A stretch of DNA of 32,232 bases from Nitrososphaerota archaeon (lineage in GTDB: Archaea > Thermoproteota > Nitrososphaeria > Nitrososphaerales > Gagatemarchaeaceae). The position numbers were made by a program, and so were the translations under genes. Below, piece by piece: positions 124 through 30,333 of this stretch; position 1 is the first letter of the stretch, and every line of letters starts with the position of its first letter. Where the stretch lies: NCBI GenBank assembly GCA_003135575.1, contig PLCG01000094.1, positions 1,312 through 33,543 on the forward strand. Direction: 5' to 3'. The notes beneath the pieces were generated by a model. It was not told the DNA's origin. It did not search any database and saw only the letters and a list, made by a program, of their open reading frames with translations.

Positions 124-1524
124 ATGGTCACCGGGGCTCGTCCAGGCGTTGGCCGCCTCGCAATCACGCTAATCGTAGCTCTTATCCTGATAATTGGAGG
201 CGTCGCTACAACTGCTTACTTGGCGACCCCAAGAAACGAAGCGACAAGCTCGACAAGCAGCGTTGCGACCAGGACCACCACAGGTCCCACCACGACGGCC
301 AATGACACGAGCGCGGTCGACCTGCAGGTTAGCACTCCGACGCCCTCCTTCCAGAACGGGAGCTGCGGCGCAGGCCCGGCATACGCGGACTCGTGGCTCC
401 TCTTCAAACACGACTCTGAGAGGACTGGCTTCTCGAGCTACAACTTCTCTACATCATCCGCCGGGAAGTTCCTGGGTCAGATCGCGTGGCGGAACAGTTC
501 AGGCTTCTCCGAGATGATAGCGACGCAGAGCGAGCTCTTCGTGGCTAGCTACTGGCTTTACGCCCTCAACCTCACCAACGGCAAGGGGCTCTGGACCGAG
601 ACGACGGGAGCGGGACCCGCCCCTCCAATCGCCGCCGACGGAAACATGGTCTACCTAGGCGAGAACGTTGGACCTTTAACCGCTTTCAACGCGACGACCG
701 GCGCGAACTCACAGATAGGGGACACGATGACGCTGGCCACGGTTGCCATCTGCGGAGACGTCGCCTATGTCAACTCCGGGCCGGGACGATTCCCGGGAGG
801 AGGACCCACTGACTCGCTTCAGGCCCTGAACCTCACCAGCGGACAGGATCTCTGGACCTTGAATTTGGCCTCGGGATTCTTCAGCAGCTACTACCCGACG
901 ACCGACGGTCACATGGTCTACATGCTCATGGACAACGGGACGGTCTTTGCTTACAGCGCGGCCTCGGGAACCCTCGTCTGGCGGCAGACGATTCCCCTCG
1001 TCCCCGTCACGACCGTATCCACAATCACTGGCTCCAACCGCAGCGTAACAGTGGTCGTAAATCCTAACGCAGCAGACGACTTCGTCGAAACCCCACCGCT
1101 GTCCGGGGGCAAGCTCTTCGTAACCACGACCTTCGGAATGATGTACGCCTTGAACGCGACAAACGGAGGCATGGTGTGGTCGACCGACCTCGGGACGAAA
1201 ATCACCGATGCAAGAGGTTCCTCAGCGGTGGCCTACGGGAAGATATTCGAGGGGACTGCAGCGGGCCTGCTGGCCATCTACGCCACCAACGGCTCGATCG
1301 TCTGGAAGGCCCCTCTAAATTCCACGGACACCGGTACGCCCACTGTCGTAGACGGGTACGTCTTCATCGCAGATTTCAGCGGGACTCTCTACCAGTTCAA
1401 CGCAAGCAATGGAGCGCTTCTTTGGAGCTACACGGGGTTGGGCGTGGGTTACGTCTCCGAGCCCATTGTGGCGGACGGGTTCGTAGCGGTGGACGGGAAT
1501 CACGGGGTCTTCGCCTTCCGTTAG
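124..1524 (+). CDS. PQQ-binding-like beta-propeller repeat protein with N-terminal TM/signal anchor
   Basis: ORF 466 aa; N-terminal hydrophobic segment (LAITLIVALILIIGGVATTAYL); repeated blade motifs such as ALNLTNGKGLWTETTG, AYSAASGTLVWRQ, ALNATNGGMVWSTD, AIYATNGSIVWKA, QFNASNGALLWSY. Confidence 0.88.
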   Translation: MVTGARPGVGRLAITLIVALILIIGGVATTAYLATPRNEATSSTSSVATRTTTGPTTTANDTSAVDLQVSTPTPSFQNGSCGAGPAYADSWLLFKHDSERTGFSSYNFSTSSAGKFLGQIAWRNSSGFSEMIATQSELFVASYWLYALNLTNGKGLWTETTGAGPAPPIAADGNMVYLGENVGPLTAFNATTGANSQIGDTMTLATVAICGDVAYVNSGPGRFPGGGPTDSLQALNLTSGQDLWTLNLASGFFSSYYPTTDGHMVYMLMDNGTVFAYSAASGTLVWRQTIPLVPVTTVSTITGSNRSVTVVVNPNAADDFVETPPLSGGKLFVTTTFGMMYALNATNGGMVWSTDLGTKITDARGSSAVAYGKIFEGTAAGLLAIYATNGSIVWKAPLNSTDTGTPTVVDGYVFIADFSGTLYQFNASNGALLWSYTGLGVGYVSEPIVADGFVAVDGNHGVFAFR

Positions 1525-1526
1525 TA

Positions 1527-1556
1527 ATTGCCTCGGCGGAGGCGCAATGAACCCGT
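1527..1556 (+). repeat. dispersed repeat copy B (core)
   Basis: ATTGCCTCGGCGGAGGCGCAATGAACCCGT. Confidence 0.8.
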
Positions 1557-1573
1557 ATCCACCAAAGCTAGGT

Positions 1574-1966
1574 CTAGTAACCTTCGACCTTCAGGTCAGG
1601 TATCCCAGAGAAATGCTTGCGGTTCCGAGTGAGCAGCGGTTGGTGGTTTTCTACAGCTATACCTGCGAGCATCGCGTCCTCCGGGTCCATCCTGGTCCCC
1701 TCCCTCGCCCTCTGCGCGTAGATCAACCCCGCCCTTATCGCGGACTCCGGGTCGAGCGGAAGCTGGGCGAGAGATTTGAGGACATCGAGGACCTTCTCAC
1801 GCTCTTCAGAAGACCTCACGCTGAGGCCGACGCCGACGTAGAGCTCGAATATCGAAGGCGCGCCGACCAGGACGGGCACGTTTCCGTCCGCAAGCTCCTT
1901 CGCCTTCCCCACGGCGCCGGCGTCGTTTCGCATCATGTCCACGAGAAAGGTAGTGTCGACCAGCAT
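1574..1966 (-). CDS. vapC: VapC-like PIN-domain toxin
   Basis: MLVDTTFLVDMMRND start, internal acidic residues (E in IFELYVG, D in DPEDAMLAGIA), C-terminal LLTRNRKHFSGIPDLKV typical of PIN. Confidence 0.88.
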   Translation of the reverse strand: MLVDTTFLVDMMRNDAGAVGKAKELADGNVPVLVGAPSIFELYVGVGLSVRSSEEREKVLDVLKSLAQLPLDPESAIRAGLIYAQRAREGTRMDPEDAMLAGIAVENHQPLLTRNRKHFSGIPDLKVEGY

Positions 1967-2356: not shown

Positions 2357-2383
2357 TTTCTCGCGCAGCAATCCAAGTGGATT

Positions 2384-2399
2384 GTATATATTTATATAA
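2384..2399 (+). promoter_or_regulatory. archaeal TATA-like promoter for winged-helix gene 2422
   Basis: TATATATTTATATAAG about 25-35 nt upstream of ATG 2422; consistent with a leaderless transcript. Confidence 0.65.
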
Positions 2400-2421
2400 G
2401 TCAGTGAGGCCTCAAGCCGAG

Positions 2422-2691
2422 ATGGGTCGAAGAATGGAGGTACTCCACGAGCCGCGTCTGGATACCGTCTCGATGATAGAGAAGGCAATCCTGGACTCGG
2501 AGGAATACCCGACAAGGATGCAGCTCTGGAAGGGCCTACCCAGGAAGGTCCAGTACCAGACGTTCCAGAGGGTCCTACAATATCTCGAGGCATCGGAAAA
2601 GATAGCGTTCAACGACAGGAAGATCATCTACACCGGCGTTGCAAGCGACAAGCTGAGGAAGTTTCTCGAGTCGAGCGTAAGAATCGGCTAG
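2422..2691 (+). CDS. small winged-helix-like protein, paralogue of 26788-27075
   Basis: EYPTRMQLWKGLPRKVQYQTFQRVLQYLEASEKIAFNDRKIIY; TATA-like TATATATTTATATAAG just upstream; ATG at 2422. Confidence 0.75.
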   Translation: MGRRMEVLHEPRLDTVSMIEKAILDSEEYPTRMQLWKGLPRKVQYQTFQRVLQYLEASEKIAFNDRKIIYTGVASDKLRKFLESSVRIG

Positions 2692-2975
2692 TAGCCAAAA
2701 CGTCGCTCGTATTCCTTGTGCGACATCAAGTCGATGATCAGGACAGACCGCTGCACGATAGCATAGCAAGAACGGTGCCCCTCGGGGTGCGAGTAGCGGA
2801 ACAGGTTCTTCACGTCGAAGTTGCTCCGATAGAAGGAGGGTATGCGACTCTTTTGAATCTGCTCTCCTGCGAAGATGTTCGTCAGCAACACATCTCTCAT
2901 ATCGTCGATCCAGCGCGACTCTTTGCTTTCAGGATCGGAACTTCGCGATCTCGCCAGCTCCTCCGACAGCCGCAC
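2688..2975 (-). CDS. RelE-superfamily-like toxin, convergent with the winged-helix gene
   Basis: NLFRYSHPEGHRSCYAIVQRSVLIIDLMSHKEYERRFGY C-terminus; shares IDD, NLFR and HKEYERRF with ORF 26462-26791; start codon uncertain. Confidence 0.65.
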   Translation of the reverse strand: MRLSEELARSRSSDPESKESRWIDDMRDVLLTNIFAGEQIQKSRIPSFYRSNFDVKNLFRYSHPEGHRSCYAIVQRSVLIIDLMSHKEYERRFGY

Positions 2976-6290: not shown

Positions 6291-6530
6291 TTGGAGACTG
6301 TGGTCGATGAGCGGGGAAGGGTTCTCATCCCTCAAGAACTGAGGGAAGAGGCTGGTCTTGAAGAGGGTACGGTCGTAAGGGTGGAGAAAGGCAAGGGGAA
6401 GACAATCCAGATCGCTCCTTTGAAGCGAGGCGCGCGTCTCGCGTGGAAGGACCTTGACGGCATCAAACCGCACAGGACGGGCAAGCCCGAATGGCCGACA
6501 CCAGAAGAAATCAAGGGCATCTGGGAATAG
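6291..6530 (+). CDS. AbrB/SpoVT-type antitoxin
   Basis: TTG start; METVVDERGRVLIPQELREEAGLEEGTVVRVEKGKGKTIQIAPL. Confidence 0.85.
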   Translation: METVVDERGRVLIPQELREEAGLEEGTVVRVEKGKGKTIQIAPLKRGARLAWKDLDGIKPHRTGKPEWPTPEEIKGIWE

Positions 6531-6928
6531 ACACCAACGTCTTGGTCGCGTACCTCGACGCCGGGCATCCTTCGCACAAGGAGACCGAGTTCCTGGCTCA
6601 GAGAGGAGTGGCCCTCAACCCCACGGTGATACACGAGGCCTATCACACCCTTGTGTTCAAGATGAAATGGGCGGCAGAGGAAGCTTCAAGGACGCTGGTC
6701 GCGGCTTGCACGGACGAGGACAACCTCTTCATCAACCAAACTCTCAGGAGGGTCCGCGCAGGATTGAAGATAGGGGCAGAGCACCATGAGCTCGGTGGAA
6801 GGGATGCCCTGATCCTCGGAAACCTTCTCATTGGAAAGGTCGGCGAACTCATCACGTTCGACAAGGAACTTCTTGCACTCGGAAAGATCAAGTTCGGCAG
6901 GTCTGCCATCACAATCCGGCGACCCTAG
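6491..6928 (+). CDS. vapC: VapC-like PIN-domain toxin
   Basis: GIDTNVLVAYLDAGHPSHKETEFLAQRGVALNPTVIHEAYHTLV ... ELGGRDALILGNLLIGKVGELITFDKELLALGKI; overlaps the antitoxin ORF (true start may be downstream). Confidence 0.85.
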   Translation: MADTRRNQGHLGIDTNVLVAYLDAGHPSHKETEFLAQRGVALNPTVIHEAYHTLVFKMKWAAEEASRTLVAACTDEDNLFINQTLRRVRAGLKIGAEHHELGGRDALILGNLLIGKVGELITFDKELLALGKIKFGRSAITIRRP

Positions 6929-7020: not shown

Positions 7021-7284
7021 CTAACGATAAACTCCATGCGTCCCAACGTCTAGGAATACAACAGTCCGATTCTCAAACCTGACCGTATACAATACCCTGA
7101 ATTGCTTGCCTATCTCGTACGAGAAAACACCCTTCCATCGAGCCACTTTTCTCAGCCCGAGCCTCGTGGGGTCTTCGCTCTCTAGGAGATGGCCCATTGC
7201 TTCATCGACCCGAGCCCTGACCTCCTGGCCTAGAGATTGGTAGCTACGGTGAAATGTATTAGTTATCTCGGCCTTCCAAACCAA
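7021..7284 (-). CDS. relE: RelE-family toxin
   Basis: MVWKAEITNTFHRSYQSLGQEVRARVDEAMGHLLESEDPTRLGLRKVARWKGVFSYEIGKQFRVLYTVRFENRTVVFLDVGTH. Confidence 0.82.
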   Translation of the reverse strand: MVWKAEITNTFHRSYQSLGQEVRARVDEAMGHLLESEDPTRLGLRKVARWKGVFSYEIGKQFRVLYTVRFENRTVVFLDVGTHGVYR

Positions 7285-7294
7285 GGCGCTTCAT

Positions 7295-7531
7295 TCAGTC
7301 TTTGTGGAGTGCCGCAATCATTTCATCTGCGTTCTTGAATCGTCTGACCTTCCCGCTGCGTGCTTCCTTTAGGCTTCTCTCGAGCCTGCCTCTGGCGGCA
7401 CCATCGAGCATGAGGTCAACCTGGCTAGCAATCTCTTCCTTTGTCAAGCCTTCTCTCACGGCCTCCTCCATGAACTCGACTAATTCCCGCATCGTCTTGC
7501 GGTCGGTGACTATCTGCTCCGTCCTCGCCAT
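7295..7531 (-). CDS. RelB-like antitoxin
   Basis: MARTEQIVTDRKTMRELVEFMEEAVREGLTKEEIASQVDLMLDGAARGRLERSLKEARSGKVRRFKNADEMIAALHKD; 10 nt upstream of RelE on the same strand; ATG at 7531. Confidence 0.72.
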   Translation of the reverse strand: MARTEQIVTDRKTMRELVEFMEEAVREGLTKEEIASQVDLMLDGAARGRLERSLKEARSGKVRRFKNADEMIAALHKD

Positions 7532-7703
7532 AGACTCATCATGAGCGCCAGCAGTTATAAGCATACACGCCAATATTGGCCGAAGGGCATTGACATCTGA
7601 GGGTTCCGCCGACATCATCCCTGAGGAGCGATTCAAAAGACTCCTGGCGGAGATTCTCGCCCGAGACAGGCCCACACTTGAGAAGATAGGGCGACTCTAA
7701 CCC

Positions 7704-7839: not shown

Positions 7840-9786
7840 TCATGGACCATCGAGAGTCGGGGATGAGCCCAACCCGATCCTTCTCAAAAGATCCGTCCAG
7901 CGCGGGTCGGTTCGGAGCGGTTCGAAGATGAAGTCGAGGTGGATGGTCCCCATGTAAGGGGAGTGCTCCTCGAAGCCCTTCTCAAGCCAATCGAACGCCT
8001 TGTCATGCTCCCCCAACATGGTGTAGACTCCTGCAATCGCTGGCGCAGCCTTTTTGCTGGCTTTCCGCATCTCGAGCAACTCGGCCAACACCTTCCGAAT
8101 ATCCTCAACGCGTCCCGCTTTCGCATACGAGTACGCGAGGTCGTTCAATGATGACGGATTTGAGCGCTCAATCTCGATCGATTTCTCGATCATCGGTATG
8201 CCCTTTTCGAACATTCCCTTTTGCACATACGACAGCCCCAGGTTTCCCAGCGGGAAAGGTGAGTTGGGGTTGATTTCTAGCGCCCTCTCATACAGCTCGA
8301 TCGCATCGTCATATTGCCCCGAATAGAGGTAGATGGTCCCGAGGATTTGACAGGTCACATTTGAGAAAGGATCCAGTTCTAGGGCTTTCTTGGCCTCTTT
8401 CGCTGCCTCTTCTCGCCGCCCGAGTGACAACAGGCCCTGGGCACGAAAGGCGTGAGCATGAGCAAGGTTGGGCTCCAGCTCAACGGCCTGTCTCAATTCG
8501 TCGTCTGCCTCGGAGTATTTCCACTCGTACATCCGGAGGATCCTTCCCATGGCCACGTGCCCTTCAGCGAGTTCGTCGTCGAGTTCCAAGGCCCTCACCG
8601 CGTAGGATTTCGCCTTCACGAAGGCGTCATCTGAGGGCATCAGCTCGAAAAAGCCGAGGATGATCCAGGCATGGGCGAGGTCCGCGTAACATTGAGCAAA
8701 GTCCGGGGCAAGCGCCACTGCCTTCTCGTAGAAGCCGATCCCCCTCAGCAGGGACTCCTTGTTGAGCTTGGTGGAGGCAAATTCCCCCTTGAGCCAGAGC
8801 GTGTAGGCCTCGAGGTTCTGGGTCGGTCGGTCCAACCGTCCCACCGACGTCGAGAATTCAAGCCGAAGCGCCTCAGCAACCTTCTCCGCTATGTCCGTCT
8901 GCACGGCGAAGATGTCATCCAGCTGCCTGTCGTACGTCTCCGACCACACGTGAGCCTCGTTGGAGGTATTGATCAGCTGGACTGTGACCCTCACCTTGTT
9001 CCCCGCCTTCCTTACGCTCCCCTCGAGGACGGAACCGACTCGCAGCTCGTCCGCGATTATGGCGACCTGCTTCGCCCCTCCCTTGTACCGGAGCACAGAG
9101 GTCCTAGCGATGACCTCCAACCCGTTCACGCGTGAGAGCACTGTTATCAGCTCCTCGGTCAGTCCGTCGGCGAAATACTCGTCATTCGCATCTGGGCTGA
9201 TGTTGTCAAACGGGAGGACCGCCAACCTTTCCCTTCGCGACTGGCCGCCTCTCGCGGGCTCGTCCCAGGGCATGGCGATCTTGTAGACCTCTAACGGCAT
9301 GCTGACGTTCTTCAGCGTCTTGCTACCGAGGCTGACTAGCGGCAGATCAGTCTTGTTCTGCACGTGGTCATAGACCTGACGCGAAAGGCAGACGCCCCCG
9401 ACCTCCGCGAGGGGCTCGATCCTGGATGCGACGTTCACGGCATCGCCTGAAATGTCGCCGTCGGATTCCACTATGTCGCCGAGGTGGATGCCCACCCTGA
9501 GATGGATCTTCTCCTCGTCAGTCTGAGAGAGGTTGTAGTCTCTGGCGGCTCTCTGAATCGCATACGCACACCTGACTGCCGCCAGCGCGCTCGGAAACTC
9601 GACCAAGAACGCGTCCCCGATCGTCTTGACCTCCCTCCCGCCGTGCCTGTCGAAGATTGGCCTCAGCAGCTTCCTCTGTTCGTTGACAAGCGCAAGCGAG
9701 AGTGCTTCGTCCCTTTGGGACAAGGCGGTATAGCCGACCATGTCGGTGAACATGATAGCTGCGAGTCTCCGCTGCCCCTTGGACAA
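7840..9786 (-). CDS. class III adenylate/guanylate cyclase - TolB-like - TPR protein
   Basis: RRLAAIMFTDMVGYTALSQRDE...KTIGDAFLVEFPSALAAV...GDAVNVASRIEPLA cyclase domain; LAVLPFDNISPDANDEYFADGLTEELI; TPRs in the C-terminal half. Confidence 0.93.
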   Translation of the reverse strand: MSKGQRRLAAIMFTDMVGYTALSQRDEALSLALVNEQRKLLRPIFDRHGGREVKTIGDAFLVEFPSALAAVRCAYAIQRAARDYNLSQTDEEKIHLRVGIHLGDIVESDGDISGDAVNVASRIEPLAEVGGVCLSRQVYDHVQNKTDLPLVSLGSKTLKNVSMPLEVYKIAMPWDEPARGGQSRRERLAVLPFDNISPDANDEYFADGLTEELITVLSRVNGLEVIARTSVLRYKGGAKQVAIIADELRVGSVLEGSVRKAGNKVRVTVQLINTSNEAHVWSETYDRQLDDIFAVQTDIAEKVAEALRLEFSTSVGRLDRPTQNLEAYTLWLKGEFASTKLNKESLLRGIGFYEKAVALAPDFAQCYADLAHAWIILGFFELMPSDDAFVKAKSYAVRALELDDELAEGHVAMGRILRMYEWKYSEADDELRQAVELEPNLAHAHAFRAQGLLSLGRREEAAKEAKKALELDPFSNVTCQILGTIYLYSGQYDDAIELYERALEINPNSPFPLGNLGLSYVQKGMFEKGIPMIEKSIEIERSNPSSLNDLAYSYAKAGRVEDIRKVLAELLEMRKASKKAAPAIAGVYTMLGEHDKAFDWLEKGFEEHSPYMGTIHLDFIFEPLRTDPRWTDLLRRIGLGSSPTLDGP

Positions 9787-10348: not shown

Positions 10349-10609
10349 TCAAGGCCCGTAAGCGCCGCTGCGATGGTCGATCTTGTCCACGAGCACGAGG
10401 CCCTCATTGCCAAGGACCTCGTAGAGAACCCTGTAGTCTCCGACCCTGATCCGATAGACCCCTTCCCTTCCTTGGAGCTTTATCGCACCGGGAGGGAACG
10501 GATCGTCAACTAGTTCCTCGAGTCTCGCCACAATCCTTGACCTGGTTGACTGCTCGAGCAATGCAAGTTCTCGATTGGCTCTTTTCGAGAGCCTTACTTC
10601 GTACTTCAA
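10349..10609 (-). CDS. relE: RelE-family toxin
   Basis: MKYEVRLSKRANRELALLEQSTRSRIVARLEELVDDPFPPGAIKLQGREGVYRIRVGDYRVLYEVLGNEGLVLVDKIDHR. Confidence 0.93.
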   Translation of the reverse strand: MKYEVRLSKRANRELALLEQSTRSRIVARLEELVDDPFPPGAIKLQGREGVYRIRVGDYRVLYEVLGNEGLVLVDKIDHRSGAYGP

Positions 10610-10791
10610 GAGCGCTTCTTCTTGACTTCGGAAAGTGCCACGGTACTGCCGTGAGCGAGGTCTTGGCGAGCCTCATCTATCGCTTCTGAGTCGTCCTTCG
10701 TGAGCACCGAATCGAACGCCTTCTCCAGGGATGAGACCCTCTTCTTAATCTGGTCTATCTCCTGCTTCAATTCGGCCTCGCCCGCCTTCAT
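10606..10791 (-). CDS. antitoxin-like protein paired with RelE
   Basis: MKAGEAELKQEIDQIKKRVSSLEKAFDSVLTKDDSEAIDEARQDLAHGSTVALSEVKKKRS; 4-nt overlap with RelE; ATG at 10791. Confidence 0.75.
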   Translation of the reverse strand: MKAGEAELKQEIDQIKKRVSSLEKAFDSVLTKDDSEAIDEARQDLAHGSTVALSEVKKKRS

Positions 10792-10845
10792 GTCGTCTTC
10801 ACAAGGCAGAAGGGTGTGGACGGATATAAGCGTGCACAGCGACCG

Positions 10846-10922
10846 CATCCGTCCACTACCTACAGCTCAACGTGTGAGTGAAATGCCCCGGCGTAGGCGC
10901 AATGAACCCTTATGCAGGGCGA
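10846..10922 (+). repeat. dispersed repeat copy L (5' module plus core)
   Basis: CATCCGTCCACTACCTACAGCTCAACGTGTGAGTGAAATGCCCCGGCGTAGGCGCAATGAACCCTTATGCAGGGCGA. Confidence 0.92.
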
Positions 10923-15209: not shown

Positions 15210-15260
15210 GCTATCTGTAGCTCAACGTGTGAGTGAAATGCCCCGGCGGAGGCGCAATGT
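15210..15260 (+). repeat. dispersed repeat copy O (5' module plus core, truncated)
   Basis: CTATCTGTAGCTCAACGTGTGAGTGAAATGCCCCGGCGGAGGCGCAATG. Confidence 0.9.
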
Positions 15261-15387
15261 TCTTCTTCTGAATGCCCGCCAAACATTCTCTATGCCCTCG
15301 CCTCGCCGCAGGGAATACAAGAGGACATATTCGACTCGACCTGTCGGGAAGTCTCCCAAGGCATCATCGAAGTCAATCTCGGTCGTC

Positions 15388-15762
15388 ATGAAGTCTAACC
15401 GCTCTTCGGGCACCATGCCCGAACTGACGCTGGCGAGGCTTCTTCGGAGAAAGCTCGTGTCGAGCGACCTGCCTGGCAGACCTGACATCGTTTATGCGCG
15501 GTCGAAAGTGGCGGTCTTCGTTCATGGGTGCTTCTGGCACAGGTGCCCGGTATGCGACCTACCGCTGCCCAAGACCAACACAGGTTTCTGGCGAAGGAAG
15601 TTCGAAAGGAATGTCGAGCGAGACCAGATCAACCGACTCGAGTTAGAGTCGATGGGCTGGAGTGTACACGAGGTCTGGGAGCATGAGATTAGAGAGGATT
15701 CGGCCGGGTGCGCCATGCGAATCAAGGACGCAATCGCAAGACTACCGCAATTTGCTGCCTAG
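15388..15762 (+). CDS. vsr: Vsr-like very-short-patch mismatch endonuclease
   Basis: SSGTMPELTLARLLRRKLV...LPGRPDIVYARSKVAVFVHGCFWHRCPVC...TGFWRRKFERNVERDQINRLELESMGWSVHEVWEHEI; ATG at 15388 preferred because the ORF-track start lies in a repeat. Confidence 0.9.
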   Translation: MKSNRSSGTMPELTLARLLRRKLVSSDLPGRPDIVYARSKVAVFVHGCFWHRCPVCDLPLPKTNTGFWRRKFERNVERDQINRLELESMGWSVHEVWEHEIREDSAGCAMRIKDAIARLPQFAA

Positions 15763-15880
15763 CTGCGACGCGACAGGACTCTCCGGTTGATGCGAGATTC
15801 GCCGGGCGCGAACGAATCACGAACCTGTTTGCATCGTCGAAAGAACCTATTTAAGCACCAACGCTCGTTTGACGAAGTAA

Positions 15881-16660
15881 ATGCCTCTACCGGGGAGAGA
15901 AACGATGCCCTGGAAGGAAGACGAAGGCTTGCTTATGATTAAGGCTCGGTGGCTAGTCGGCAAGACCCTATCACAGGTGGAAGATTCAATCAGGCAGCTC
16001 GACGACGCGTCACGCGTAAAGACGAAGGCAGGCGCCGCGTATGTGACCGAGCATTACTTTGGGATTCCCGCCAACAGCGGAGACGAACCAGACTTTCCAA
16101 AGCTCGGGATTGAGCTCAAATCGGTCCCTTTGAAGGAGAAGAACGGTCTGCTGACAGTGAAGGAGCCTCTCTCCCTGAACATGCTCAATTACATGAAGGA
16201 GTGGAAGTGCGACGACATCAATGAGTCTTCGTTCTACAGGAAGAACAAGCGCATCCTCTTCGTCTGTTACGTTCACAAGGGCGAGAAGCGGTCCGATTAC
16301 GTCATAAGATACGTCTTCATCTGGAACATGGACGGAACTGTGCTCGACGAGCTCAGGCCGGACTTCGACAGGATAATCACGAAGATAAGGGCGGGCAACG
16401 CTACCGACCTGCACCAGAGATACGACAGATATCTTACCACTTGTCCGAAGCACAACGGGAAGTTCAAGGACCCGAAGGAGCGCACCTCGAAGATCGCGCA
16501 GCCGTTCAATGACACTCCGGGCGAGAGAAAGGCCTACAGGCTGAAGACGACCTACATGAGCCTGGTGATAAGCAGAGACCTAGGCGTCTCTTTGCAACGC
16601 AGCGGCCGAGGATTGGAGGCGATATGGTGGAGGGACACTGCAGGCGGGCCGAGCCTATGA
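15881..16660 (+). CDS. Sau3AI/MutH-like type II restriction endonuclease (single domain)
   Basis: LVGKTLSQVE...KTKAGAAYVTEHYFGIPANSGDEPDFPKLGIELKSVPLKEKNG: D...ExK catalytic signature of the MutH/Sau3AI fold. Confidence 0.78.
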   Translation: MPLPGRETMPWKEDEGLLMIKARWLVGKTLSQVEDSIRQLDDASRVKTKAGAAYVTEHYFGIPANSGDEPDFPKLGIELKSVPLKEKNGLLTVKEPLSLNMLNYMKEWKCDDINESSFYRKNKRILFVCYVHKGEKRSDYVIRYVFIWNMDGTVLDELRPDFDRIITKIRAGNATDLHQRYDRYLTTCPKHNGKFKDPKERTSKIAQPFNDTPGERKAYRLKTTYMSLVISRDLGVSLQRSGRGLEAIWWRDTAGGPSL

Positions 16661-17749
16661 AGCCACTCTTGTCAAGATAGGCGCCACAGGGACATCCATC
16701 CCGGCCTCGAAGATTATGGCCTTCGCAAGCGCCGCTGATAGCTTGACCGGCACCGAGTTCCCGACCAGCTTATACTTGGTTGTCGTAGTCTTCGCAGGGA
16801 ACTTGTACGTTAGCGGATAGCACTGCAAGGACGCACACTCCCTCACCGTCGGCTTCCGGTAGCGGATTTCTCCCTTGTGCTTCACCGCAATCACCATCGT
16901 CTCTCTTGATCCGTTGAACTGCGTGGCCATGACCGTCCTCGAAGGTCTGTCGAGGTCGTCCGGGAACTTCATCTTCCCATAATACGCGTGGGCCACTTTC
17001 TGTTTCTTGTTTCTTTCCGCGTCTGTCTTTGTCATCAGCGCGTCTTCGGGTCTCATGAAGTGGTCTTCGAGCTGCTCCACTGGTAGCGAGATTTGGTAGT
17101 TTGGGTCTTTGACCAGCTTGCCTTTCGGTATCCTGCCAATCGGGTTCGGGAACGAATCAATCACCCTCCTCATATGCACCCACGGCTCATACAGCAGGTT
17201 GTCGAGAGTCAGGGTCGACTCCTCGAAATGCGTCTGGACGGGCGTAGGATATCTCCCTGAAAGGAGCCTCAGCCGCTTTTGGGGCGCGCCGAAGTCAGCC
17301 GAGTTGAAGACCTCCCTCCTGGGAATGTCGAAAAAGCCGTCCTCCGGGATGCCCATGTCCTGCAGCCTCACCCTGTGCGGGAGCGTCTGCAGGAGACGCG
17401 GAACATTCTCCATAATCCACCATCTCGGATTCAGAGTGTGCACGAACCTGAAGTATGCCAGCACGAGTTTCATCCCTTTTGCAAAGTCGCCACCACCTCC
17501 TTTCTTGGACCCTGAGAACTCGGTGCACGGTGGGCCGCCTATGAGGACGTCGGGCCTCGGGAATCGTTTGGGATCCAGCGACGCGATGTCGGCCTTGAAC
17601 ACCTCGGTCTCTGGCTGGTTGACCTTGTGAGCCTCGAGAGCAGGGTTCCAGTTGTCCACAGCGTGCGTGACATCGAAGCCCATCTGTCTGAATCCTTCAG
17701 AGAACCCGCCCGCACCGCAGAAGAGGTCTAACACCGTCAGCTTCGGCAT
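16655..17749 (-). CDS. C5-cytosine DNA methyltransferase
   Basis: LTVLDLFCGAGGFSEGFRQMGFD; GGPPCTEFSGSKKGG; ENVPRLLQ; RECASLQCYP; YKLVGNSVPVKLSAALAKAI. Confidence 0.95.
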   Translation of the reverse strand: MPKLTVLDLFCGAGGFSEGFRQMGFDVTHAVDNWNPALEAHKVNQPETEVFKADIASLDPKRFPRPDVLIGGPPCTEFSGSKKGGGGDFAKGMKLVLAYFRFVHTLNPRWWIMENVPRLLQTLPHRVRLQDMGIPEDGFFDIPRREVFNSADFGAPQKRLRLLSGRYPTPVQTHFEESTLTLDNLLYEPWVHMRRVIDSFPNPIGRIPKGKLVKDPNYQISLPVEQLEDHFMRPEDALMTKTDAERNKKQKVAHAYYGKMKFPDDLDRPSRTVMATQFNGSRETMVIAVKHKGEIRYRKPTVRECASLQCYPLTYKFPAKTTTTKYKLVGNSVPVKLSAALAKAIIFEAGMDVPVAPILTRVAS

Positions 17750-18534: not shown

Positions 18535-20427
18535 TTGAGACTATACTCCGGGACCTCGCTCCAATTCGTCGAAGACACCTTCCAGGGCCAGATTGCAGAG
18601 AAGCTAAGGAACGCGTTCTTCGAGCACTTCCGATACAATCCCTCCCCGAGCGAGGTCAGCTCCTGGAGGAACTCCCTCAGGGCCATGTCGCAGGTGATCG
18701 AGCACTCGAAACTCATGGACCACGGGATAGTCCTCGAGTACCAGCTCCCCCTGACGTCGAGGCGGCTCGACTGCATGATATGCGGCAGGGACCATGAGCA
18801 TGAAGACCACGCGGTAATCGTGGAGCTGAAGCAGTGGGAGAGGTGCGAAGACTCCGAGAGCGAGCGCGAGGTGAGCACCAGGCTGGGAGGCCGCGAGAGA
18901 GACGTCCTGCACCCGTCCGTCCAGGCAGGGCAATACAAGAGATACCTCCAAGACGTCCAGACGGTCTTCTACGACTCCGACAAGGACGGCGGCCACGTCG
19001 AGCTAGACGCGTGCTGCTACCTTCACAACTACAACCCATACTCGGACGACGTGCTATTCTATCCAAAGTTCAAGGCTGTGACCGACGACTGCCCGGTCTT
19101 CACGGCCGACAACGTGAGCGGCCTGAGCGACTACCTCGTCCCGAGGCTGGACCGCGGCGAGGGCATCGAGGTCCTGAGGAGGGTAGAGGCGAGCAGATAC
19201 AGGCCGAGCAAGAAGCTCATGGACCATGTAGGCGACGTGATCAAGGGCAACCCTGAGTTCATACTCCTCGACGAGCAGCTCGTCGTCTACGACAAGATAT
19301 TCTCCTTTGCCAAGAAAGGCTTCCACGACAAGCAGAAGGTCGTCGTCATCGTCGAGGGAGGGCCTGGGACGGGCAAGTCTGCGATCGCCATCAACCTGAT
19401 GGCCGACCTCTCCATAGCCGGCTACAACGCCCACTACGCGACGGGCTCGAAGGCCTTCACGGAGACCCTATGGAAGAGGGTAGGCTCGCGGGCCTCGGCT
19501 CAGTTCAAGTACTTCAACAGCTACTCGAACGCGCAGGACAACGAGATCGACGTCCTCATCGCCGACGAGTCGCACAGGATACGGATGACGAGCTACAACC
19601 GGTTCACTCCGAAGATCAAGCGCAAAGACGTCCCACAGATCGAGGAGCTCGTGACCGCAGCGAAGGTCTCGGTCTTCTTCATCGACGACAAGCAGGTCGT
19701 CCGTCCAGGCGAGATAGGCTCTATCGAATACATCAAGGAATATGCTGCGAACAGGAACTGCAAGGTGTTCGAATACAAGCTCGACGTCCAGTTCAGGTGC
19801 GCCGGCTCCCAGGGCTTTGTGAGCTGGGTCGAGAACACCCTCGGGATCGCGAGGACCGCGGACGTCATCTGGGACCCGAGCGAGGAAGACTTCGAGTTCA
19901 AAGTCCTGGACAGCCCGGAGGAGTTGGAGGCCGCCATACGCCAGAAGGTGACGGAAGGGAACACGGGGCGGCTCGTCGCCGGGTTCTGCTGGAAGTGGTC
20001 TGACCCCAAGCCCGACGGGACTCTGGAGGATGATGTGGTCATAGGGGGCTTTCGCAGGCCTTGGAACGCCAAACAGGACGTGAGGAGGCTCGCGAAGGGG
20101 ATACCCACGGCTTCGCTCTGGGCGACCGACCCGAACGGATTGGAGCAGGTCGGGTGCGTCTACACTGCTCAGGGTTTCGAGTTCGATTATGCGGGGGTCA
20201 TCTTCGGTCCCGACCTGCGATACAACTTCGACACGCAATCTTGGGAAGGCCATCCGGCAGATTCCTATGACAGGTCAGTGAAGAGGGCAGGCGCCGACTT
20301 TACCAAACTGGTCGAGAACACGTATCGGGTGCTCTTCAGCCGCGCCATGAAGGGATGCTACGTCCATTTCATGGACAAGGACACAGAGAGATTCTTCAAG
20401 TCGAGAATGGAACAGGGTCAGTCCTAG
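18535..20427 (+). CDS. DUF2075-like P-loop NTPase with N-terminal PD-(D/E)XK-like nuclease motif
   Basis: TTG start; RRLDCMICGRDHEHEDHAVIVELKQWE (D...ExK); VVVIVEGGPGTGKSAIAINLMADL (Walker A); DVLIADESHRIR (Walker B); FIDDKQVVRPGEIGS; C-terminal VYTAQGFEFDYAGVIFG and YRVLFSRAMKGCYV. Confidence 0.9.
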   Translation: MRLYSGTSLQFVEDTFQGQIAEKLRNAFFEHFRYNPSPSEVSSWRNSLRAMSQVIEHSKLMDHGIVLEYQLPLTSRRLDCMICGRDHEHEDHAVIVELKQWERCEDSESEREVSTRLGGRERDVLHPSVQAGQYKRYLQDVQTVFYDSDKDGGHVELDACCYLHNYNPYSDDVLFYPKFKAVTDDCPVFTADNVSGLSDYLVPRLDRGEGIEVLRRVEASRYRPSKKLMDHVGDVIKGNPEFILLDEQLVVYDKIFSFAKKGFHDKQKVVVIVEGGPGTGKSAIAINLMADLSIAGYNAHYATGSKAFTETLWKRVGSRASAQFKYFNSYSNAQDNEIDVLIADESHRIRMTSYNRFTPKIKRKDVPQIEELVTAAKVSVFFIDDKQVVRPGEIGSIEYIKEYAANRNCKVFEYKLDVQFRCAGSQGFVSWVENTLGIARTADVIWDPSEEDFEFKVLDSPEELEAAIRQKVTEGNTGRLVAGFCWKWSDPKPDGTLEDDVVIGGFRRPWNAKQDVRRLAKGIPTASLWATDPNGLEQVGCVYTAQGFEFDYAGVIFGPDLRYNFDTQSWEGHPADSYDRSVKRAGADFTKLVENTYRVLFSRAMKGCYVHFMDKDTERFFKSRMEQGQS

Positions 20428-20436
20428 GTCACGACC

Positions 20437-21108
20437 TTGACCGATACAAAATCGGGAGGCGAAAGCGAATCGATCTTCTTGGATGATGAGGTGCTTCCGC
20501 AGATTCTACGGGTCGTGCGCAATGCGTCGCAACTCGTAACCTTCGTCACGCCCTACGTCCGTCTCTGGGGTCATCTTCAGAGTGCGATGGACGAGGCCAT
20601 TGATCGAGGAGTCGCTATATGGTTCGTCGTACGGGCGGGCGAAAGGAACCAATCTGAGGAGCTGGAATGGCTCCGCGAACACGGCGCCAAGGTATACGAA
20701 GTACCGCATCTGCACGCGAAAATCTATCTCAACGAGAAGACTGTCATGGTAAGCTCAATGAACATCACCGAGAAATCGACGACCAACTCTCACGATTTTG
20801 CGGTGATGGTGAGGGACGAAGACGATGCGAAGAAGCTTAGAGATTACGTCGCACGCCTGACCGGGAAGGTCAATGCGTCTCGACCCGGACGTCCAGGGAG
20901 ACAGAACGAACAGACAGGAATATGCATCAGAGACGGAAGCAGGATGGAATTCAATATCGCAAAGCCGCTGTGCACCAAATGCTATCTCGAATGGGTGAAA
21001 TACAAGAACGAGGATTATGTGGAAAAGTATTGCCATTCATGTGGTAAGCTCACTAAGACCACCTACGCAAGACCGCTTTGCATAGCCTGCTACAAGAAGT
21101 TGAACTGA
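20437..21108 (+). CDS. PLD-like (single HKD-type) nuclease with C-terminal Cys clusters
   Basis: VPHLHAKIYLNEKTVMVSSMNITEKSTTNSHDFAVMV resembles HxKx..SxN; C-terminal CTKCYLEW and CHSCGKLTKTTYARPLCIACYKKLN zinc-ribbon-like. Confidence 0.8.
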   Translation: MTDTKSGGESESIFLDDEVLPQILRVVRNASQLVTFVTPYVRLWGHLQSAMDEAIDRGVAIWFVVRAGERNQSEELEWLREHGAKVYEVPHLHAKIYLNEKTVMVSSMNITEKSTTNSHDFAVMVRDEDDAKKLRDYVARLTGKVNASRPGRPGRQNEQTGICIRDGSRMEFNIAKPLCTKCYLEWVKYKNEDYVEKYCHSCGKLTKTTYARPLCIACYKKLN

Positions 21109-26461: not shown

Positions 26462-26791
26462 TTGCGAGACTACAGCAAGTTCAAGGTGACCGTGAGAGGC
26501 GATCCGAAGTTTGCATCGTTCTTCATGGGTCTGAGCGACGGACAACTGAAGAAGGGGATAGACGATGTCCTCGACGCGCTAAAGGAGCATCCAGATTCTG
26601 GCGACCTCGTCGAACGCTCGCTATGGCCTGATGAATACAAGAAACTCGTACTCGACAACCTGTTCCGAATCGAGATCGGGAGGGAGCAGCGTATGACCTA
26701 TACGATAAGAATCGACGGCGGTAATCTGGATGTTGACGTCATCGAGTTCTTCCCGACGCACAAGGAATACGAGAGACGCTTCCACTTTTAG
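26462..26791 (+). CDS. RelE-superfamily-like toxin, convergent with winged-helix gene
   Basis: VTVRGDPKFASFFMGLSDGQLKKGIDDVLDALKEHPDSGDLVERSLWPDEYKKLVLDNLFRIEIGREQRMTYTIRIDGGNLDVDVIEFFPTHKEYERRFHF; TTG start. Confidence 0.75.
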   Translation: MRDYSKFKVTVRGDPKFASFFMGLSDGQLKKGIDDVLDALKEHPDSGDLVERSLWPDEYKKLVLDNLFRIEIGREQRMTYTIRIDGGNLDVDVIEFFPTHKEYERRFHF

Positions 26792-27075
26792 CGAAGCTTG
26801 ATACTTTTCTCGAACAGGTGCTTCAGCCTGGGGTTGTCTACGGCCACCCAGACGATTCTGTCATCCTTGAAGACTATCTTGTTCGAGGCCTCGAGGTAGT
26901 CCAGAATCCGCTTGAAGGTCTGGTATTCCATGCCTTTGGGAAGCGACTTCCAGAGCTCCGTCCTGGTTGGATAGTCTGACTTCTTGATCCGGTCGACTAT
27001 CTGCTTCTCCACCATTAGCACGGTGTCAAGCTTCGGCGAGTGCACCAAGCAAATACTCAAAAGGCAGGTCGTCAT
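26788..27075 (-). CDS. small winged-helix-like protein, paralogue of 2422-2691
   Basis: DYPTRTELWKSLPKGMEYQTFKRILDYLEASNKIVFKDDRIVWVAV aligns with EYPTRMQLWKGLPRKVQYQTFQRVLQYLEASEKIAFNDRKIIYTGV. Confidence 0.78.
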   Translation of the reverse strand: MTTCLLSICLVHSPKLDTVLMVEKQIVDRIKKSDYPTRTELWKSLPKGMEYQTFKRILDYLEASNKIVFKDDRIVWVAVDNPRLKHLFEKSIKLR

Positions 27076-27107
27076 ATAAACTTATGTAACTGGGAAATAG
27101 TGGAAGC

Positions 27108-28389: not shown

Positions 28390-30333
28390 TCAATATCCCA
28401 TCTTTCGCTCGATCTCCAACCAGCGCGGGTCGGAGCGATACTTTGCGAGCCGTGGAAACAGTCTGAAGTACCCAAGGGCCCCATCATGCTCTAGGTACGC
28501 ACGCTCGAGCAGTCGATAGGCCTCGTCCTCTTCTCCCAACTCGAGCTTGACCTCGGCGAGAAGGGCGGGTGACTTGTAGAGCCCAGACTTCTCCGACTGG
28601 ACTTCGTCGACTATCTTGACCGCCTGCTCTTTTCGCCCCGCTATCGCGTAGAGCTCCGCCAGCGCCATCCTCGGATAGGAAGACGACCCTGCTCCGCCCG
28701 TTTCGGCGGCCTTCGTCATCTCTGCGATCGCCCTGTCCAATTCCCCCACCCCTTCATGCGCCCAAGCGCTCCAGAAATGTGCGGACGCGAAGCCTGGGTC
28801 CTCCTCGGCCAGCTTTTCGAACTGGTCTATCGCCTCGCGATATTTGCCCTGGAAGAAGATCCCAATCCCTATCCCCTGCTTTATGGTGCTCGAATGGGGG
28901 TCCAGCTGCAGGGCTTGCTGCTCGTGCTCGAACGCCTCCTCGAACCTTCCCAAGCCGTTCAGCAGCGTCCAATACCAATGATGGGCAGTCGCATAGCTGG
29001 GCTTGAGCGCTATCGCCCGTTTGAGCTCCCTTTCAGCCCCGCGCATGTCCCATTCGTGGTGCAGGGCGAGCGCCAGGGACGCGTGGGCCTCGGCTAGGTC
29101 ATCGTCAAGCTCGACAGCCCTCTGCGCGTAGCCCTTGCCGATCGCACCCTCGCTGTGGGACATCCATCCCCTGTCTTCCTGGATGGAGTAGCAGTCCGCG
29201 AGCCCGGAGTACGCGAGAGCGAAGTTCGGGTCCCGTTTGATTGCCTCCTCGAAGTACTTGGCGGCCTTCTTGAGCCCCTCGAACGACCGCTCGTTCCAAA
29301 GGTATCTCCCCTTCAGGTAGAGGGTGTACGCCTCGACGTCACCCGTCGCCTTCTTCTCCACCGCCTCCCTCTCCTTTGAGAGAAGGTTCACCCTGAGCGC
29401 CTGCGCTACCTGCTCGGCGATGTCTGCCTGGATCGCAAAGATGTCCGTCAGGTCCCGGTCGTAGCTCTGCGCCCAGAGGTGCCTGTCGTTCTGGCTGTCG
29501 ATGAGCTGTGTGGTGATCCTCACCTTGTTGCCCGCCTTCCTCACGCTCCCCTCGAGCACCGTCCCCGCCGAGAGCTCGCGCCCTATCTCGCCGATAGGCA
29601 GCACAGTGTCCTTGTACCTCATCACGGACGTGCGCGAGATGACGCTCAGCTCGCTTATCCTCGAGACCGTCGAGATGAGCTCGTCAGTCATCCCGTCGAC
29701 GAAATACCGGTCGTTCGGGTCGGCGCTCAAGTTCGAGAGCGGCAGTATGGCGATGCGACGGGGGTCAAGGGCCGACTCGGCAGGTTGCGCCCTCTCACCT
29801 CGTCCTTCCACCTTGTAGACCTCGACGGGGTACCGTATATTCTTCAGCTCACGGGTGCCGATCTTCACGAACCTGCAATCGACCTTCCTCTCCACCTGGT
29901 CCACCACCTGCCTGGTAACGCAGATCCCGCCTGGCTCGGCGAGGGGTTGGAGCCTGGAGGCGACGTTGACCGCATCCCCGAGGATGTCCCCCTCCGAGTG
30001 GACGACGTCCCCCACGTGTATCCCGATCCTGACCGATATCTTGTCGCCAGGTCCTTGCTTTTCGTTGAACCTCCGGACGTTCCCCTGGGCCTGGAGGGCG
30101 CACTCGACAGCCTCCACCGCGCTCGGGAACTCCACCAGGAAGCCGTCTCCCATGGTCTTGACGACCCTTCCCCGGTGGCTGTCGAAGGCACCCTGCAGGA
30201 GGCCTCTATGCTCCTCTAGCAGCCTCAGGGCCCTCCTCTCGTCGACAGAGGTCATCGAGGAGTAGCCCACCAGGTCGGTGAACATGATCGCCCCCAGTCG
30301 GCGCTCCCCCATGTCCCTCCGCTCGGCTGCCAT
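28390..30333 (-). CDS. class III adenylate/guanylate cyclase - TolB-like - TPR protein (paralogue of 7840-9786)
   Basis: RRLGAIMFTDLVGYSSMTSVDE...KTMGDGFLVEFPSAVEAV...GDAVNVASRLQPLA; same domain order as 7840-9786. Confidence 0.93.
   Translation of the reverse strand: MAAERRDMGERRLGAIMFTDLVGYSSMTSVDERRALRLLEEHRGLLQGAFDSHRGRVVKTMGDGFLVEFPSAVEAVECALQAQGNVRRFNEKQGPGDKISVRIGIHVGDVVHSEGDILGDAVNVASRLQPLAEPGGICVTRQVVDQVERKVDCRFVKIGTRELKNIRYPVEVYKVEGRGERAQPAESALDPRRIAILPLSNLSADPNDRYFVDGMTDELISTVSRISELSVISRTSVMRYKDTVLPIGEIGRELSAGTVLEGSVRKAGNKVRITTQLIDSQNDRHLWAQSYDRDLTDIFAIQADIAEQVAQALRVNLLSKEREAVEKKATGDVEAYTLYLKGRYLWNERSFEGLKKAAKYFEEAIKRDPNFALAYSGLADCYSIQEDRGWMSHSEGAIGKGYAQRAVELDDDLAEAHASLALALHHEWDMRGAERELKRAIALKPSYATAHHWYWTLLNGLGRFEEAFEHEQQALQLDPHSSTIKQGIGIGIFFQGKYREAIDQFEKLAEEDPGFASAHFWSAWAHEGVGELDRAIAEMTKAAETGGAGSSSYPRMALAELYAIAGRKEQAVKIVDEVQSEKSGLYKSPALLAEVKLELGEEDEAYRLLERAYLEHDGALGYFRLFPRLAKYRSDPRWLEIERKMGY

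Follow-up and report, generated by a model that had tools for sequence, protein, structure and literature searches.

A convergent winged-helix and YoeB/RelE-like gene pair in archaea: a predicted type II-like toxin-antitoxin family with a palindromic operator on the antitoxin promoter

W and T are two small proteins encoded tail to tail, in two copies, within a stretch of 32,232 nucleotides (the window) of a 2.34-Mb archaeal genome bin that is 87% complete. The pair probably constitutes a type II-like toxin-antitoxin (TA) module, in which W is the antitoxin and its own repressor and T is a toxin of the YoeB/RelE type whose gene is uncoupled from that of the antitoxin when the two are convergent. 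It was found in archaea only in the searches made and is apparently an undescribed TA family, with no curated name in the libraries searched. The genes and their common stop codons in the window are as follows, the start-codon choices being approximate:

2422..2691, plus strand: W1, 89 aa, start ATG 2422, stop TAG 2689-2691; winged-helix protein, predicted antitoxin and autorepressor (on a basis that includes the AF2 model of the family)
2688..2975, minus strand: T1, 95 aa, start GTG 2975, minus-strand TAG 2690-2688; YoeB/RelE-like predicted toxin
2688..2691, both strands: CTAG, common to the stop codons of W1 and T1 (copy 1)
26462..26791, plus strand: T2, 109 aa, start TTG 26462, stop at 26791; YoeB/RelE-like predicted toxin
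26788..27048, minus strand: W2, stop at 26788, open frame up to 27081; winged-helix protein, predicted antitoxin and autorepressor
26788..26791, both strands: TTAG, common to the stop codons of T2 and W2 (copy 2)

The gene coordinates bear out the preliminary description of copy 1 as a tail-to-tail pair with CTAG common to both stops. That description regarded 26462-27075 as the same pair again; this is indeed a tail-to-tail W-T pair, but its overlap is TTAG and it is a distant relative of copy 1, as judged from identities of 47-49% between W1 and W2 and about 30% between T1 and T2. W2 also more likely starts at TTG 27048 or GTG 27045 than at ATG 27075, since the latter falls within the promoter palindrome at 27071-27090. 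The two copies belong to different subclades in both trees and differ in ancestry. Copy 1 clusters with Bathyarchaeota (support 97 in the W tree and 93 in the T tree) and copy 2 with Nitrososphaeria relatives from the host family (99 and 96). No third W copy was found in the 2.34-Mb genome; the named relatives in which close copies occur are bins of Nitrososphaerales/Thaumarchaeota and of Gagatemarchaeum.

T belongs to the RelE/ParE/YoeB toxin superfamily and has a YoeB/RelE fold, in keeping with its original reading as RelE-like. Among 82 T homologues, 30 match the Pfam family ParE_toxin and 22 match YoeB_toxin (the latter at E <= 0.01), while TIGR02116 is matched by eight and RelE_StbE reached by just one (both at E <= 0.001). 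T1 and T2 themselves have no Pfam or NCBIfam match above cut-off and do not pass the cut-off of the curated YoeB/Txe family. The six best matches in a PDB profile search with T are all YoeB-type entries. The AF2 model of T2 (pLDDT 85) shows the strand-helix-helix-strands-helix order of the RelE topology, and its best Foldseek match is the YoeB/ParE structure 6n90 (E 6e-4, prob 1.00).

The catalytic residues of E. coli YoeB are Glu46, Arg65 and His83. R77 and Y80 are conserved in all 82 sequences of the T alignment and H100 and Y103 in 81 of them; all four are present in both T1 and T2, and T1 retains the family positions G47, P56, Y59, R77, Y80, H100, K101, Y103, F107 and Y109. In the profile match R77 aligns with the arginine of the YoeB RLxY motif, and H100 is located after the last strand like His83 of YoeB, the positions being compared without direct alignment. 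No conserved glutamate occupies the position of YoeB Glu46 across the 82 aligned sequences. T would most likely be a ribosome-associated mRNA endonuclease, toxic to its host.

The winged-helix character that the preliminary description ascribed to W is reproduced by its AF2 model (pLDDT 80). A fold search with this model returned many DNA-binding winged helices, all of them weak matches (E > 0.03). W has no Pfam antitoxin match and does not qualify as a YefM/Phd protein. W and T of the window fall outside all families of Pfam, NCBIfam and PADLOC, and single-sequence family searches with the window proteins yielded sub-threshold noise only. It is proposed that W binds and neutralises T and that it also binds DNA, repressing its own gene via a palindrome in the promoter.

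Homologues were gathered in separate searches with W alone and with T alone, and in a scan of named genomes 80 of 223 relatives were kept; most of the genomes surveyed are metagenome bins. The preliminary description named W homologues that stand apart from RelE-like genes as grounds against it. This objection fails, as T adjoins W at 97 of the 120 non-redundant W loci of the archaea-wide set. T is convergent to W at 46 loci, nearly all of them in Thermoproteota. At a further 43 it lies directly 3' on the same strand, often overlapping (W>T); the hosts are DPANN archaea, Methanoregula and Hadarchaeum, mostly the first two. At eight loci T is upstream on the same strand (T>W), in most cases within a single Nitrososphaeria family and once in Bathyarchaeota. 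The 23 W loci without T include five with possible T remnants and several others near contig edges. As about one fifth of the W genes lack T, some of them at contig ends, some W proteins may act as plain regulators.

In 400 Thermoproteota genomes W lies within 450 nt of 32 of the 33 intact T genes, and the remaining one ends at a contig edge; of the 47 W genes, by contrast, 15 have no intact T (Fisher p = 0.0014). Such one-sided loss, with the toxin gone and the antitoxin retained, is in the direction expected if T is harmful without W. Between species Ka/Ks is 0.03-0.15 for W and T, which denotes strong purifying selection, and in convergent T (0.07-0.11) this selection is nearly as strong as on W. 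The tail-to-tail adjacency is therefore far above chance, being kept between species while both proteins are under strong purifying selection. The idea that the genes are chance neighbours, or that one frame is non-coding, draws on their small size and nothing further. It is refuted by the kept adjacency, which extends over several archaeal phyla, by Ka/Ks near 0.1 for both genes and by the T-W association in the 400 genomes; the confident fold models for W and T also speak against it, and its probability is negligible.

The distances of W and T correlate: r is 0.70 for all 83 pairs, against a permutation maximum of 0.16, and 0.57 among the convergent pairs only (permutation maximum 0.17). The layout labels can be mapped on the T tree with five changes, compared with a mean of 32.7 when shuffled; the resolution of deep branches is poor, given how short the proteins are. 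One W>T locus (L111) is nested in a convergent clade with support of 100 in the W tree and 99 in the T tree, and one convergent locus (L137) is placed among the W>T loci of DPANN archaea. Layouts therefore do flip.

Stop-to-stop gaps range from -11 to +13 nt in 45 of the 46 convergent pairs, with a gap of 65 nt in one degraded pair; the value is -4 in 12 pairs, 0 in 10 and +1 in six. The 4-nt overlap is just one value in this range; it was rejected as a functional signal and is incidental. The preliminary description considered the arrangement probably functional. This holds insofar as the pair is a conserved module and its convergence is real and widespread, but the family cannot depend on the convergent 3' overlap to work, since the same families also form W>T operons and T>W tandems. 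Beyond W and T the gene neighbours differ between convergent loci, with the exception of one close pair, so it is the pair alone that travels. Its patchy distribution and unrelated neighbours suggest that it may be mobile. Carriage on viruses, phages or plasmids was considered and rejected, as W had no match in viral, plasmid and phage sequence sets.

A palindrome search near W promoters identified a 20-bp element, the predicted operator, with the consensus ATTRTATAARYTTATAYAAT, the right arm of which is the TATA box. Two such sites are present in the window:

2381..2400, plus strand: Operator 1, ATTGTATATATTTATATAAG, 20-bp palindrome enclosing the W1 TATA box, PWM score 20.7
27071..27090, minus strand: Operator 2, GTTACATAAGTTTATATGAC, palindrome over the W2 TATA box, PWM score 19.1-19.2

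Operator 1 is located about 26 nt 5' of the W1 start codon, a leaderless-type spacing. No other site in the window scores >= 8, and with up to two mismatches allowed the operator pattern occurs in the whole 2.34-Mb genome at the two W promoters only; as these same two sites served to define the pattern, what is informative is that it occurs nowhere else. The operator is found at 38/43 W promoters of convergent loci and at 39/41 of W>T loci, the latter from other phyla and scored with a model trained on the convergent loci. Split-half tests recovered it in 34/43 held-out convergent W promoters, and the convergent-trained model also detects it at 14/21 solitary W and 4/8 T>W loci. Left-arm complementarity amounts to 6.6-6.8 of 10 positions compared with about 3.8 for shuffled arms, hence the match is to a palindrome and goes beyond the TATA arm alone. 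The fetched loci, 490 kb in total, contain 69 strong sites, of which 67 are W promoters. An operator common to T and W was rejected because upstream of T it occurs at chance level only (3/37 convergent and 2/27 operonic T genes). By its sequence the palindrome at the W promoter has the hallmarks of a site dedicated to autoregulation. In T>W pairs of the Nitrosopumilaceae type the operator is weak or changed, and several T>W loci contain an operator-like TATA element for W between the two genes. At two Nitrosopumilaceae-like T>W loci (L014 and L038) a different inverted repeat, ATAGTACAA ... TTGTACTAT, flanks the W TATA region, which suggests an altered operator specificity in that lineage.

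An operator so strongly conserved at W and almost nowhere else would also befit a regulatory circuit in which W represses its own gene and its RelE-fold partner T is no toxin but acts, for instance, as co-repressor or anti-repressor, and the purifying selection on T, which nearly matches that on W, is compatible with such a role. This is rather improbable given that the Arg and His/Tyr positions conserved in T match the active-site region of YoeB-type toxins, that T is often decayed beside an intact W and that the distribution is patchy.

The promoters of the two genes are unequal. According to a TATA model, which is approximate, the 130 nt upstream of the gene contain a TATA motif in 27/43 cases for convergent W versus 2/36 for convergent T (p = 7.5e-8); at W>T loci the counts are 30/42 for W and 5/28 for T. 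The convergent T gene thus seems to have no recognisable promoter and W a strong one. Read-through from upstream is one possible source of the convergent T transcript: about 40% of convergent T genes have a co-directional ORF within 120 nt, and T2 starts 42 nt 3' of a co-directional gene of 341 aa. A conserved upstream gene that drives convergent T was rejected, as the neighbours are unrelated save in one close pair. T-run terminators within 60 nt after the stops are not enriched at convergent loci (six observed versus 5.0 expected after W, eight versus 10.4 after T), whereas after T in W>T operons 17 were observed versus 5.3 expected; the convergent transcripts may therefore overlap. A U-tract terminator within the conserved T C-terminus was rejected for lack of enrichment, the lysine codons being 36 AAA/35 AAG there and 169/182 in the rest of T, which amounts to equal choice.

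A strong W promoter facing a T gene without a recognisable one, gaps of -11 to +13 nt and the lack, at convergent stops, of the T-run enrichment seen after T in W>T operons are what one would expect if the convergent form were a hybrid of type I and type II, in which the W transcript runs past its stop into T and serves as antisense RNA in addition to neutralisation by the protein. The relBE2-asrelE2 locus of M. tuberculosis provides a precedent (PMC9325379). However, the overlap is dispensable in that both families are also found in the W>T and T>W layouts, and when convergent genes are tightly packed their 3' ends can be expected to overlap in any case, which makes such a hybrid unlikely. 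The palindromic operator on W alone explains more than the antisense overlap or transcriptional interference suggested at the outset.

In the type II-like module favoured here, W would repress its own promoter via the 20-bp palindrome around the TATA box. Where W comes first and T follows with no promoter of its own, as in DPANN archaea and Methanoregula, the operator would govern both genes. In Thermoproteota, including both window copies, W keeps a strong and apparently autoregulated promoter while T has none recognisable, and the outcome would be antitoxin in excess and toxin at a low level supplied by a weak promoter or by outside read-through. Free T would titrate W off the operator and W synthesis would rise, so that the balance between toxin and antitoxin would be set by feedback on W and not by co-transcription. 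As in type II systems there are two small adjacent protein-coding genes, a toxin from a known superfamily (RelE/ParE/YoeB) and, as far as the winged-helix model and the conserved palindrome predict, a DNA-binding antitoxin with an operator on its own promoter. A co-directional operon is found in the 43 W>T loci but in none of the 46 convergent loci, the two window copies included, hence the label type II-like for the convergent form.

A more far-reaching proposal, which we consider doubtful, is that of a pan-archaeal TA family whose invariant unit is antitoxin plus operator with the toxin gene on any side, and in whose stable convergent form in Thermoproteota the antitoxin transcript also holds back, as antisense RNA, a toxin gene that has no promoter, so that a single locus combines control of type I and type II. 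The W-T family makes it testable whether TA balance needs co-transcription or whether antitoxin autoregulation suffices. Its members come from ammonia-oxidising archaea, uncultured soil archaea, Bathyarchaeia, DPANN archaea and Methanoregula, and the operator, being conserved between phyla, may be used to find and test further members.

Besides W-T, the window contains further TA pairs, which crowd around copy 1 (the first four entries below), and other loci:

1574-2303: VapB-PIN pair, near copy 1
6291-6928: MazE/AbrB-PIN pair, near copy 1
7021-7675: ParE-like toxin and small partner gene without Pfam match, near copy 1
10349-10848: ParE-like toxin and small partner gene without Pfam match, near copy 1
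7840-9786 and 28390-30333: two paralogues of about 650 aa that resemble adenylate/guanylate cyclase plus TPR repeats (domains named by eye)
15229-17749: restriction-modification locus with a Vsr-like nicking endonuclease, a type II restriction enzyme and a cytosine methyltransferase
18535-21108: Schlafen-group-3 helicase-type protein (Pfam PF09848, E 2e-86), then a phospholipase-D-like protein with DrmC similarity; together a possible defence operon

The type II restriction enzyme and cytosine methyltransferase genes are themselves convergent with a 6-nt overlap (16655-16660). A repeat element of 45-95 nt with the core TGCCCCGGCGGAGGCGCAATGAACCC occurs on the plus strand at 1534, 2336, 4150, 5439, 6203, 6981, 7757, 10889, 13392 and 15244, and also at three other loci (L168, L169 and L171). 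The elements are spaced 0.8-3 kb apart, keep a single orientation per contig stretch (28/28) and separate small gene modules, many of which are TA pairs, so the whole looks like a cassette array. An integron integrase behind the array was rejected; no match exceeded the cut-off, and the sub-cut-off matches were also found in control genomes. W-T copy 1 lies inside an interval of this array and copy 2 outside. The element is present in some members of the same genus and family, two of them on contigs with W-T loci (G001:C13 and G008:C110), and a third protein similar to the paralogues of about 650 aa is encoded in the array on contig C107 (L168). At another locus (L010, G010:C4) a solitary W (1033-1446, plus strand) is tail to tail with a PIN-like gene, named by eye, in the usual place of T (1498-1803, minus strand). 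This gene has its own VapB-like upstream gene, and the arrangement is probably a coincidence, possibly a partner exchange.

A 2025 survey of RelE/ParE toxins reported YoeB/Txe to be absent in archaea, an absence on which the W-T family bears, and mentions neither winged-helix antitoxins nor convergent genes (PMC11980606). Screens for type II systems seek two-gene operons (e.g. Makarova 2009, PMC2701414) and would therefore miss a convergent family; the large TA census takes two-gene operons as its basis, and the word 'convergent' is absent from its text. A convergent type II family was not found in open-access papers searched in full text; arCOG, InterPro or the closed literature may already contain the family as an unnamed cluster.

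Like YefM-YoeB and Axe-Txe, the family has a toxin with the YoeB fold and sequence profile, and in its W>T members the antitoxin gene leads the operon and has an operator on its promoter. It differs in that W is a winged helix and not a YefM/Phd protein, and in that the window genes are convergent. RelB is a ribbon-helix-helix protein. The RelBE systems, archaeal ones included, share with W-T a RelE-superfamily toxin and a small autorepressing DNA-binding antitoxin, a role predicted for W, which unlike RelB is modelled as a winged helix. In HigBA, which forms one operon, HigA is an Xre-type HTH protein. The toxin gene comes first and gene order is thus reversible, resembling the eight T>W loci, but several of these have the operator-like TATA element for W between the genes. 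The nearest regulatory precedent is the type IIb relBE2-asrelE2 system of M. tuberculosis, in which a non-coding antisense RNA opposes a normal operon (PMC9325379). Both involve a RelE toxin and convergent transcription across the toxin gene, as far as can be told for W-T from the genes alone, whereas in W-T it is the antitoxin gene itself that is convergent.
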